Shown one piece after another: positions 18,757-57,415 of a DNA stretch of 64,000 nucleotides; position 1 is the first letter of the stretch, and the number at the start of each line of letters is the position of its first letter. The stretch is from Paenibacillus phyllosphaerae (lineage in GTDB: Bacteria > Bacillota > Bacilli > Paenibacillales > Paenibacillaceae). Under the pieces are notes generated by a model. It was not told the origin of the DNA. It saw nothing but the letters and a program-made list of their open reading frames with translations, and searched no databases. The stretch lies in NCBI RefSeq assembly GCF_014192105.1, contig NZ_JACHXK010000004.1, positions 1-64,000 of the forward strand, in the 5' to 3' direction. A program made the translations under genes and the position numbers.

Positions 18757-19296
18757 TTAACGCAGCGTCTTAAGCGCGCCGCTCCACGCCAGCACTTGGT
18801 CGAGCATGCCGTTCACGTTCGTCAGATGCAGATCGGCCGGCTTGAACACGCTGCCGTTCTCGAAGTCCGTGAACAACGACAGCGCCGGGTGAACCCGAAC
18901 GTCCGCAACGGACAGCTCGCCGAGGATGCCTCTCAAATGCTCAGCCGCACGCGCGCCGCCGACGGAACCGTAGCTCACGATGCCGGCTGCTTTGTTGTTC
19001 CATGCTTCACGCGCATAATCCAGCGCATTCTTCAAGGATGCGGTAATGCTGTGGTTGTACTCCTGCACGATGAAGACGAAACCGTCGAGCTCGTTCAGCT
19101 TCAAGTTCCATGCCTTCGCTTGCTCGGATGCATCCACTTCGCCGAACATCGGCAGCTTGTAATCGGCGATATCGACGATTTCATAATTGGCGTCGCCGCG
19201 GCCATCAGCGATTTTCTTCACCCATTCGCCAACCTGTGGGCTTACCCGGCCTTGGCGCGTACTGCCTAGAATAATACCGATATTCAATTTGGACAT
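18757..19296 (-). CDS. NADPH-dependent FMN reductase
   Basis: A 179-aa flavodoxin-like reductase of the NADPH_dep_FMN_red family (azoreductase/chromate reductase relatives). The FMN phosphate-binding loop is GSTRQGR (residues 11-17), and the PQNEYN-like block appears as VQEYNHSITASLKNALDYA near residue 77. It is cytosolic, and the physiological acceptor is unknown. It stands alone between a terminator and the hairpin array. Confidence 0.9.
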   Translation of the reverse strand: MSKLNIGIILGSTRQGRVSPQVGEWVKKIADGRGDANYEIVDIADYKLPMFGEVDASEQAKAWNLKLNELDGFVFIVQEYNHSITASLKNALDYAREAWNNKAAGIVSYGSVGGARAAEHLRGILGELSVADVRVHPALSLFTDFENGSVFKPADLHLTNVNGMLDQVLAWSGALKTLR

Positions 19297-19434: not shown

Positions 19435-19932
19435 CGCAATGCTGCGTGTCTATCTCTATACGCAAACCAATGTGTGTTGCGCAATGCTGCGTGTCTATCT
19501 CTACACGCAAACCAATGTGTGTTGCGCATTGGTTTGCATGTTCAACCTCACGGTCGAACACGCAAACCAATGCGCTGTCTTAACACAATGCTGCGTGTCT
19601 ATCACCACACGCAAACCAATGCGTTTGCGCAATGCTGCATGTTCAACCTCACGGTCGAACACGCAAACCAATGCGCCTTCTTAACACAATGCTGCGTGTC
19701 TATCACCACACGCAAACCAATGTGTGTTGCGCAATGCTGCATGTTCAACCTCACGGTCGAACACGCAAACCAATGCGCCTTCTTAACACAATGCTGCGTG
19801 TCTATCTCTACACGCAAACCAATGTGTGTTGCGCAATGCTGCATGTTCAACCTCACGGTCGAACACGCAAACCAATGCGCTGTCTTAACACAATGCTGCG
19901 TGTCTATCTCCACACGCAAACCAATGTGTTGT
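19435..19932 (-). repeat. Tandem array of ten stem-loop units (about 102-bp higher-order period)
   Basis: Two alternating unit types fill nearly 500 bp. Type A (42-45 bp) reads on the plus strand CAATGCTGC-GTGT-8-nt loop-ACAC-GCAAACCAATG; type B (57-60 bp) has the same outer arms around GTTC...GAAC and a 12-nt loop. A units start at 19437, 19482, 19586, 19687, 19789 and 19891; B units at 19527, 19630, 19732 and 19834. From 19586 on, the A-to-A spacing is 101-102 bp. The first B unit has a perfect outer arm instead, forming a stem of about 20 bp with one mismatch. Loops of A units vary (CTATCTCT, CTATCACC, CTATCTCC). All intervening sequence is repeated, so it is not a CRISPR array. It begins 18 bp past the GH30 stop and would lie in that mRNA's 3' end. 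Long ORFs across it are by-products of the 102-bp period. Confidence 0.9.
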
Positions 19933-19949
19933 AATCGATTTCAAAATAA

Positions 19950-21872
19950 TCAATTCGTAACCGCCAGCTGGAACGTTTCCCATGTCCCTACTGCCGTCTT
20001 GTTCGCTATTAAGGGACTTGCGCCCGTGTTGTCCGCGCTTACGTAATTGTTGTTCGCATCGGCTCTGATCGACACGCCTCCGCTGACGCTGCTCACCTGG
20101 AACATCTCCCATGTCCCGATACTGCTGCTTCTGGCAATCAACGGATTGGCTCCGCCGTTCTCCGCCGTCACGTACTTATTGTTTGCCAATGCTTTGAATG
20201 CCGTGCGGCCATTGCTCAACTCGACCCGATTGAACAGCTCCCATGCGCCGCCTATTGTCGTGCGATTGGCAATCAGCGCAGACTTGCCGCCATTCTCGGC
20301 TGTCACGAACAAATTGTTGGCGTTCGCCTTGATCGATACTTTATCCCATGTCGGCGTTCCGTTCCACTTGAACGTAATGACCGATTTGGCCGGGATCGTA
20401 TACGTGATTGCCTGCTTGCCCCATTGCAGCTTAACTGATTTTGACGCTGTCTGAGGATTATAGACGACGGCGACCTTAGATCCGTCAGGGTTCTTGAACG
20501 CGACGCTCTTCATATCCGAGAACGTATTCGATTCTACCCGATACGCGCCGGGGACGACGAATTTGCTGAAGTGGCCGAGCAAATAGTATTGCTTGTGATA
20601 CGTGACACCGTTCTCCGGCGTATGGCTGTTGTCGGAATTCTGAATCGTAATCATCCCGCGGTTACTGTTACCCGCTGCCAGCAGCGTCGGCCCGCTCTTC
20701 TGGTCAAGCGCCGCATTCCACAAAACAATCGATTTGGACCAGTTGCGCGTGATGGTAATGAATTCGTTCATCATATTATCGAACCCGCTGTGCGTGCCGT
20801 TCTGCGGATCGTTCCATGTCCCGAATCCGCCTTCCGTGAACCATACGTCTTTGTCCGGATGGGCGTTATGCAGGCTGGTCATCTGCGAACCGTCGCCGCT
20901 GTCATAATGATGGAAAGCGCCGCCTGCGACGTAATTGCCTTTGCCGGCATTCTTCAGACTTGTGATGACCGTGTTCGGGTAATTCCAGTCGAGATAATTA
21001 TGGTCGAAAGCGATGATTTTGGTCGCGAGCCCTGCCGACTGCAGCGTCGGTCCCAGGTAATCCCCGATAAAACCGATCTGGTCCTGTTCGTTCATCCCCA
21101 TCGACGGATAGCTGGATGTTTCGTACTTCGGCTCGTTCTGCGGCGTAATCGCGTAGATCGGAATGCCTTGCGCGGTATAGGCTTGGATATATTTTTTCAA
21201 ATAGTTCGCGAATGTCTGGTAATGCTCCGCCTTCAGTTTGCCGCCGTTCAGCGTCTGGCTCGTCGAACCGGATGGCGCATCCTTCATCCAGGCTGGCGCA
21301 CTCCAGGTTGTGGCGAACACCTTCATACTCGGATTCTTCGCGATCGCCTGCTTCACCATCGGGATGATATACGCCGAATCGCGGCTGATCGAGAAGCTGT
21401 TCAAGCTCGTGTCGTTCCACGTATCGTCGTACGTGTACGCTTCCCAGTTGAAATCCGAGGCGCCGATCGGCTGCCGCATGATGCTCATCCCGATTCCCGA
21501 CGGTCCGAACAGTTTCTCCATCACCTCTGCCCGCTTGGACGCATCCAGCTTGTAATTCATGAGCCATGCGGAAGCATCCGTCATCGATACCCCGAAACCG
21601 TCCATCTGCTGCCTCGTGACATCTTCATCCACCCGAATGCTGTAGTTAGCCGTTCCGCTATCCGCCCCGAATGCAACATCCGCCTTCCTCGACAGGCGCG
21701 ATGACGTGCTTAATCCCGAATCCGTCTGTCCCGGATCGGAAGTCGACATCCATACCTCGACCGCTTCCCCGGCTGCAGAGGCCTTCGGGAGATACGGGGT
21801 GCTGCTCGCGCCAACGACTAAGGACAAACTTACGCCGAGCATCGCCATTCTTCTTCGCATATTCACTATCAT
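19950..21872 (-). CDS. Secreted GH30 glycoside hydrolase with fascin-like C-terminal repeats
   Basis: A 640-aa secreted enzyme. A signal peptide (to about residue 34) precedes a GH30 (beta/alpha)8 barrel with beta side domain; the acid/base Glu is in TPQNEPKY and the nucleophile Glu in WFTEGGFG. Members include glucosylceramidases, endo-beta-1,6-glucanases and xylanases; the bacterial subfamily cannot be settled by eye. Residues from about 512 contain three roughly 40-residue repeats (each with KANANNxxVTAENGG or a variant, ending TWExFQ), resembling fascin-type beta-trefoil. ATG 21872 follows GGAGGAG by 5 nt; the outer ATG is worse. Confidence 0.88.
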   Translation of the reverse strand: MIVNMRRRMAMLGVSLSLVVGASSTPYLPKASAAGEAVEVWMSTSDPGQTDSGLSTSSRLSRKADVAFGADSGTANYSIRVDEDVTRQQMDGFGVSMTDASAWLMNYKLDASKRAEVMEKLFGPSGIGMSIMRQPIGASDFNWEAYTYDDTWNDTSLNSFSISRDSAYIIPMVKQAIAKNPSMKVFATTWSAPAWMKDAPSGSTSQTLNGGKLKAEHYQTFANYLKKYIQAYTAQGIPIYAITPQNEPKYETSSYPSMGMNEQDQIGFIGDYLGPTLQSAGLATKIIAFDHNYLDWNYPNTVITSLKNAGKGNYVAGGAFHHYDSGDGSQMTSLHNAHPDKDVWFTEGGFGTWNDPQNGTHSGFDNMMNEFITITRNWSKSIVLWNAALDQKSGPTLLAAGNSNRGMITIQNSDNSHTPENGVTYHKQYYLLGHFSKFVVPGAYRVESNTFSDMKSVAFKNPDGSKVAVVYNPQTASKSVKLQWGKQAITYTIPAKSVITFKWNGTPTWDKVSIKANANNLFVTAENGGKSALIANRTTIGGAWELFNRVELSNGRTAFKALANNKYVTAENGGANPLIARSSSIGTWEMFQVSSVSGGVSIRADANNNYVSADNTGASPLIANKTAVGTWETFQLAVTN

Positions 21873-21900
21873 TTTCACTCCTCCAAAGTTAATTTTGTCC

Positions 21901-21922
21901 AAAATGTAATGGATTACATTTT
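21901..21922 (-). promoter_or_regulatory. Perfect palindromic operator upstream of GH30
   Basis: Arms AAAATGTAAT and ATTACATTTT are separated by GG, a perfect 10-bp inverted repeat 29 nt before the GH30 start codon. The core TGTAAT..ATTACA resembles LacI- or GntR-family operators, though the centre lacks the CG of LacI sites. No regulator gene is adjacent. Confidence 0.6.
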
Positions 21923-23232: not shown

Positions 23233-23430
23233 CGGTTAACAGCTCCTTGTTAGAGATACTCGTAGAATACTTCCATCATCCGGAACTGTACATGACGCAT
23301 TTTTGTAATATAAGGACAAGGTGAAACGGCTGGTGCCGTCCTCTGGCAGCGTAAGCGCGTTTCATTCCAGAGAAATAGAAGATGATTTATAAGCGTAAAA
23401 CTTATAAATACTTATATTTCAAAAAGAGGA

Positions 23431-57005: not shown

Positions 57006-57415
57006 AGGGGGAAAAGGGCTGCGCCCTTCTAAACCCTTTTAGTTCGCCTCCCCCACCCCTCCAACGGAGGGGATGCAAGCTTATGCTTCCGATGCCAGTT
57101 TTCCTTCGGAAAACTCTTAGCACACCCATAATTAGCGTGACTCGTGACGCGGCCGTCTTCGATGTTTCCTTTCGACGTTGGCTCGCGTTGTCCAGCGGAT
57201 TGGTTTGCAAGTCAGTTAGACTTGCAGCATTCCGCTAAGTGGGACAAAGCTCTTGTTCGAGCTTCGTACGCAACGGGTTGCCTTGGGGAGCAGACCTGTA
57301 TATTCATGCCTTCGTGCATACTGCTAGCTATTCCCCGCTTTCGTCCGCTTCCTTGATGAATGCTGTGCTTCCTATCGCAAGCACTAGCAGATCAACGTGC
57401 GGACACGCTTTACTC
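57006..57415. repeat. Dispersed structured element, copy 2
   Basis: The 57144-57309 core is the counterpart of the element at 46061-46226 and lies between a transporter promoter and a small gene. It has the same conserved flanks, the CTCG/CGAG and TTGTCC/GGACAA helices (57181-57262), and the 3' GGACACGCTT. Its apical hairpin, GGATTGGTTTGC-AAGTC-AGTTA-GACTT-GCAGCATTCC (57188-57247), has the same architecture and the same outer strands as the units of the 19.4-kb array. A CCTCCCCC...GGAGGGG block and a GGGCTGCGCCC hairpin precede it. No gene was found in this 725-bp gap. Confidence 0.65.

Follow-up and report, generated by a model that had tools for sequence, protein, structure and literature searches.

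RAYT transposases are the usual explanation for REPs, most described families of which come from Proteobacteria. Integron attC sites act as folded single strands; their outer arms are constant, some bases are extrahelical and the inner part varies. The hairpins analysed here, from the genus Paenibacillus, share these three structural features with attC; however, the attC box sequences are not seen in the hairpin core, and the hairpin copies are dispersed without cassettes. When the family was compared with the REP, BIME and REPIN elements that go with a RAYT, the likeness lay in short imperfect hairpins that exceed 100 copies in some genomes, lie mainly between genes and are often clustered (available text of PMC3733652 and PMC2817692). 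The family differs in having no Y1 match in the genomes with exact cores, no GTAG tag, head-to-tail arrays, a stricter internal core and a Gram-positive host genus. In the available part of PMC3733652, in which the words Firmicutes and Paenibacillus are absent, most REPs are sorted into GTAG and CGTC classes, and the CGTC class is apparently without a dedicated transposase. Being palindromic repeats with no apparent transposase of their own is a trait shared with the present family, whereas CGTC-tagged REPs have stems of 8-9 bp and rare clusters (PMC3733652, same part) and the family here has no tag, longer stems and common clusters. The hairpin-forming repeats of mitochondria (RHE, double hairpin elements) are also mobile-looking intergenic hairpins, some of them inside rRNA genes and with an unknown mover; genomes, sequence and structure all differ, and the likeness is one of habit only (PMC2800124, available part). 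Among the literature matches listed, no fitting description of such a repeat in Paenibacillus or in Gram-positives was found.

The window analysed here is a stretch of 64,000 nucleotides of Paenibacillus phyllosphaerae (contig NZ_JACHXK010000004.1, positions 1 to 64,000). The ten hairpins that the original prediction had placed at the 3' end of a GH30 gene are real, as sequence, repeats, units and folds agree. The following features of the window are concerned:

18757-19296, minus strand: FMN reductase gene (PF03358), on the other flank of the array
19437..19926, minus strand: hairpin array, order A A B A B A B A B A
19437..19472, minus strand: short hairpin A1 (36 nt; repeat and unit scan)
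19482..19517, minus strand: short hairpin A2 (36 nt; repeat and unit scan)
19524..19575, minus strand: long hairpin B1, arms corrected into a near-perfect palindrome (repeats, folds)
19586..19621, minus strand: short hairpin A3 (36 nt; repeat and unit scan)
19630..19673, minus strand: long hairpin B2 (unit scan)
19687..19722, minus strand: short hairpin A4 (36 nt; repeat and unit scan)
19732..19775, minus strand: long hairpin B3 (unit scan)
19789..19824, minus strand: short hairpin A5 (36 nt; repeat and unit scan)
19834..19877, minus strand: long hairpin B4 (unit scan)
19891..19926, minus strand: short hairpin A6 (36 nt; repeat and unit scan)
19950-21902, minus strand: GH30 gene (PF02055), stop side facing the array
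57190..57240, plus strand: lone further hairpin of the same family (covariance model and unit scan)

The array lies between the GH30 and FMN reductase genes, about 20 bp past the GH30 stop, and consists of six short (A) and four long (B) hairpins, all imperfect. The predicted alternation of two stem types holds for most of the array, the first two units (A A) being the exception, and the loops of the A hairpins vary mainly in their last bases, as had been described. B1 is a near-perfect palindrome, as though one arm was copied from the other, and such a palindrome within a hairpin is a known mark of arm copying. When the array was folded, the minus strand gave -243.2 kcal/mol (z -10.5) and the plus strand -202.5 kcal/mol (z -11.7), with 0 of 100 shuffles as good in each case. 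A 102-bp dimer is tandemly repeated in the array with 95% matches. Two hairpin types, each with its own linker, alternate both at 19437-19926 and in an array of P. methanolicus (L318, G020:C3:215680-215997), and both arrays look like the product of dimer amplification.

Read on the minus strand, the unit runs from ATTGGYTTG through an inner stem, a loop and the second strand of the inner stem to CAGCATT, within an outer stem of 4-5 bp, and the hairpin measures about 45-60 nt. ATTGGTTTG and CAGCATT pair incompletely: there is a T.T mismatch, GT stays unpaired, and a T.G wobble comes next. The imperfect pairing of the outer strands, with one mismatch and a two-base bulge, is confirmed. The core letters are near-invariant, and the inner and outer stems both vary. 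Both sides had changed in 10 of 21 pairs among 18 units, and in 16 of 21 pairs (340 cells) among 108 distinct rows from the P. phyllosphaerae genome, an alignment that was fitted to the structure and hence leans towards it; the controls gave 100 cells (sd 11) when shuffled and 33-75 when the partner was slid. One inner pair is open in 55 rows, and an A.G mismatch was seen in the units inspected. G.T pairs are common, and GNRA is the commonest class among the loops listed, up to 40 kinds per list (44/80 in this genome, 28/76 elsewhere). When folded as single-stranded DNA, the long unit is more stable on its ATTGG strand (-16.9 vs -11.1 kcal/mol for the other strand); the short unit and the 57190 copy show little strand difference. 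Beyond the hairpin, where the terminal inverted repeats of a MITE would be sought, only weak AAG and C[GT]A edges are conserved. No known Rfam family was recognised: at E up to 1 the search returned only two miRNA models, whose 24.6 and 22.2 bits lie far below the gathering score of 90. The core (ATTGGYTTG and CAGCATT with the T.T mismatch and the GT bulge) is best explained as the recognition part, with stems that need only stay paired. GNRA loops suit RNA at least as well as DNA, and the hairpin may also have an RNA form.

For the genus-wide count, the exact core was defined as ATTGGYTTG-N8-30-CAGCATT and the same pattern read backward served as control. Exact cores are present in 16 of 22 genus genomes, including 128 in P. 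phyllosphaerae (G000), 183 in P. methanolicus (G020), 51 in P. sacheonensis (G004), 22 in G009 and 21 in P. lycopersici (G018), compared with a total of 2 for the control; the six genomes with no exact core are G001, G007, G010, G014, G017 and G021. A covariance model gave at least 130 matches at E up to 0.1 in the P. phyllosphaerae genome, where 150 of 2853 candidates were scored. In the family-wide search it matched 17 of 295 genomes, all of the same genus (17/22); none of the 273 family genomes outside the genus matched, a soft absence, as this coarse search scored just 18 candidates in each genome. With a DNA query, matches were obtained in 11 of 39 genomes, among them this one, and the named carriers are P. 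sacheonensis, P. methanolicus, P. artemisiicola, P. glycinis, P. lignilyticus, P. lycopersici and strain CF384 (28 of 29 stretches). No member of the family was matched in phages or plasmids. Twenty-two pattern matches in viral contigs were rejected as their inner stems pair poorly (best 4/7 and 5/10 scored positions), and one Bacteroidales match does not, by reading, fold as a unit. The hairpin family is thus confined, in these searches, to a single genus and dispersed among many of its genomes. The original prediction had asked for the outer strands and the fold to be sought across Paenibacillus, regarding the array as a local slippage product if no other genome shared the outer strands or if the copies had lost pairing. 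Units were found in many genomes of the genus, the same outer strands recur and pairing is kept despite divergence, which supports its view of a recognised structure rather than a simple satellite.

In the P. phyllosphaerae genome, 57 of 64 hairpin sites lie outside predicted genes, as called by a codon-usage caller that covered 77% of the same stretches and did not call rRNA; the site set comprised 92 of 111 rows, leaving out opposite-strand palindrome matches and the weakest rows. Relative to the upstream gene, 20 of 47 classifiable sites read with it and 27 against it (p 0.38). These 47 sites have genes on both sides: co-directional ones at 27 sites (12 with, 15 against), divergent ones at 12 and convergent ones at 8; ten sites had no predicted gene on one side, many of them at contig ends. 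Orientation to genes is thus random, which argues against an mRNA 3' element, and the preference of the fold for one strand together with this random direction would suit movement of the hairpin itself rather than a role in host mRNA. No partner gene was recognised among the 296 predicted proteins near these sites; the largest similarity cluster (10 members) is response-regulator-like, and others resemble transporter parts by eye. When replication strands were inspected by eye in G018 and G009, with origins not located, no consistent rule appeared.

Filled and empty sites were observed at matching loci. The htrA gene is present in all 22 genomes, and its fetched flanks carry units only in G000 (3 hairpins) and G020 (7), of which the covariance model with default filters found 2 and 4, respectively. 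A further pattern match in this search (L196) does not pair and was not counted, and the inverted hairpins around htrA at L118 were taken as chance. A hairpin of G004 precedes a gene that reads as NUDIX hydrolase-like, and none is present at the matching site in G016, G006, G009, G018 and G002; G020 and G013 also show none, although they align poorly there and were not found by anchor. In G020, four places share one hairpin sequence, and 15 kb separate two of these places; the linkers are identical in 6/6 gaps at L317 and 8/9 at L316 and mixed at L315 and L318. Since linkers differ between the four places, what the places share is the hairpin and not the linker, and this suggests a fairly recent spread. 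Filled and empty matching sites, together with the same hairpin elsewhere beside other linkers, indicate that the hairpin itself moves; the movement is read only from such patterns, and some of the presence and absence could be due to losses.

A second dispersed repeat of about 100 bp with paired arms (CAAGGTGAAACGGCT...GTTTCATTCCGGAGAAATA...GTGAAACTTATAAA...) was found in the P. phyllosphaerae genome and, in G015 (strain CF384), beside htrA; it had no Rfam match at E up to 1.

23321-23367 of the window, plus strand: second repeat, the element extending to about 23410 (also at L132, L149, L150, L163, L168, L174 and L191)

Hairpins, inside this repeat or behind it, follow its first half at the same point at L324, L329 and L330 in G020 and at L155 in P. 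phyllosphaerae, and at L329 and L330 the repeat resumes after them. Conserved sequence about 18-19 nt beyond the hairpin was also considered and rejected, as it was gone in the P. phyllosphaerae genome after removal of rRNA-leader copies. One column persisted in the other genomes after recognised leaders were left out (A at -18, 36/59), and we think that it may reflect leftover leader copies.

Hairpins abut the 5' ends of 16S genes in six genomes and of a 23S gene once, in G002, which has one hairpin before each.

L204 5474-5533 and 7727-7786, and L243-L262, against the rRNA: family hairpins directly before the start of mature 16S or, in G002, 23S

Among the P. phyllosphaerae leaders, a hairpin stands directly before 16S in C40, C5, C37 and C3 and is missing there in C38, C28, C23, C26, C29 and C17. 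Further upstream, most operons of this genome have a hairpin at a second leader site. When C40 was compared with C38, the hairpin was found between ACTT and CTTTTATGG. This clearest pair also differs by six upstream bases, and the ends of the insertion are only roughly defined; no clear target duplication was observed in this one pair compared. Across 15 genomes, 13 of 40 leaders carry a family hairpin by reading and 27 do not (G000 9/10, G020 2/7, P. artemisiicola G006 2/3, the other 12 genomes 0/20), and by coordinates further hairpins abut 16S in G004 and G015. The hairpins compared immediately ahead of a 16S or 23S start, in six genomes, all run opposite to the rRNA; this uniform direction is not random and counts against a mobile hairpin. 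Hairpins against 16S and 23S 5' ends offer a natural experiment on what rRNA leaders tolerate.

Changes in place were found between species. At one matching site the number of units is 3 in G004, 3 in G009, 2 in P. glycinis (G016) and 1 in G002, and at another it is 2 in G018 and 1 in G009, with flanks 75-87% identical. The comparison of unit number, suggested earlier between strains, was thus run between species, and the count does vary at a fixed site. At an orthologous site, G018 and G009 differ by T-A versus C-G in one pair and by G.T versus A-T in another, which could reflect selection in place and not for movement. Half units that keep the 5' arm occur at 15 3' array ends, compared with 3 on the other side, under an automatic rule (11 vs 2 and 4 vs 1, recognised rRNA leaders left out). 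The polarity is tentative, one of the 15 (L015) being a nearly complete unit.

Arrays with a half unit at the 3' end: L126, L128, L129, L131, L139, L149, L150, L158, L160 and L174

An enzyme was sought with the Y1 domain (PF01797, IS200/RAYT). No match was obtained in the P. phyllosphaerae genome or in any of the 16 genomes with exact cores, and the only match across the 22 genus genomes was a weak one in G017 (24.1 bits, cut-off 23), which has no exact core. Short imperfect palindromes in high copy, mainly intergenic, are a REP trait that this family has. The REP tags gave a different result. GTAG/CTAC occurred within 16 nt of the core at 1, 2, 4 and 6 of 66 P. phyllosphaerae sites (about 3.3 expected each) and at 3, 2, 0 and 4 of 56 sites in other genomes (2.8 expected), CTAC downstream being slightly above expectation. 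CGTC/GACG were at expectation (3, 3, 3 and 3 of 66; 2, 3, 4 and 2 of 56). BIME-style alternating orientation was not observed, 0 of 64 sites having units on both strands after opposite-strand palindrome matches had been dropped from the input. Because neither a tag nor a RAYT was found and the arrays are head-to-tail, the family was not filed as REP.

Taken together, the ten hairpins are probably a local cluster of a mobile DNA element, a non-autonomous and REP-like hairpin that would be moved as a folded single strand by an enzyme. The family lies mostly outside predicted genes in the P. phyllosphaerae genome, and its stems covary strongly in a compensatory way. Some matching sites are filled and others empty, an identical hairpin stands at separate places beside other linkers, and the number of units changes at a fixed site. 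The hairpin would move as a folded single strand recognised by an enzyme acting in trans, arrays would grow after insertion by tandem duplication through slippage at the hairpin, and occasionally one arm may be recopied from the other. Of the roles proposed earlier, a recombination target is the closest, if it is taken to mean a mobile DNA hairpin that an enzyme recognises. A more specific form is conceivable, though we hold it only tentatively: a REP-like element of Gram-positives whose mobile unit is just the folded hairpin, placed at precise sites (before 16S and 23S, inside another repeat) by an undescribed non-Y1 enzyme that acts on single strands or is linked to RNA. That the copies are true REPs which have lost their RAYT, relics of an IS200-type system, is unlikely. 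Size, copy number, intergenic place, the bulged imperfect hairpin and clustering are all REP-like; however, 21 of 22 genus genomes have no Y1 match, the hairpins are flanked by GTAG and CGTC about as often as chance predicts, and the four places in G020 point to spread that is not ancient.

Roles in the host mRNA, namely the originally proposed stabilisation, processing or decoy function and also termination of the GH30 transcript, are very unlikely. The place of the array just behind the GH30 stop, the better folding of the GH30 sense strand, the GNRA loops and the common G.T pairs speak for them. Against them stand the random orientation and the divergent gene pairs described above, and the one close GH30 relative among 21 other genus genomes (G020, 72%) has hairpin-free fetched flanks; the array gives no sign that we have seen of serving the GH30 gene. 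Just as hard to favour, at a comparably low or slightly lower level, is an element selected in place, such as a site for host protein binding or rRNA maturation. The hardly changing core letters with covarying stems, the compensatory change at an orthologous site and the hairpins abutting rRNA genes would fit it, but the distribution is patchy: 6 of 22 genus genomes are without the exact core, most leaders have no hairpin, and only two of the 22 genomes have hairpins beside htrA. A purely local satellite produced by slippage is scarcely credible, and as a full explanation it is refuted by a unit that occurs genus-wide with covariation; the tandem 102-bp dimer speaks for it to the extent that array length is a local product. 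For the mobile hairpin that we prefer, the combination of REP-like habits, a strict core, filled and empty sites and no Y1 match means that cultured Paenibacillus can be used to test directly what drives REP-like repeats in the absence of a RAYT.

We also considered retro-copying of a leader RNA. This was dropped, as loop type and truncation direction disagree on the RNA strand. The array at L153 (G000:C11:181735-182012) is in frame with a predicted protein of 891 amino acids and forms its repetitive N-terminus, more likely the result of a misplaced start than real coding.
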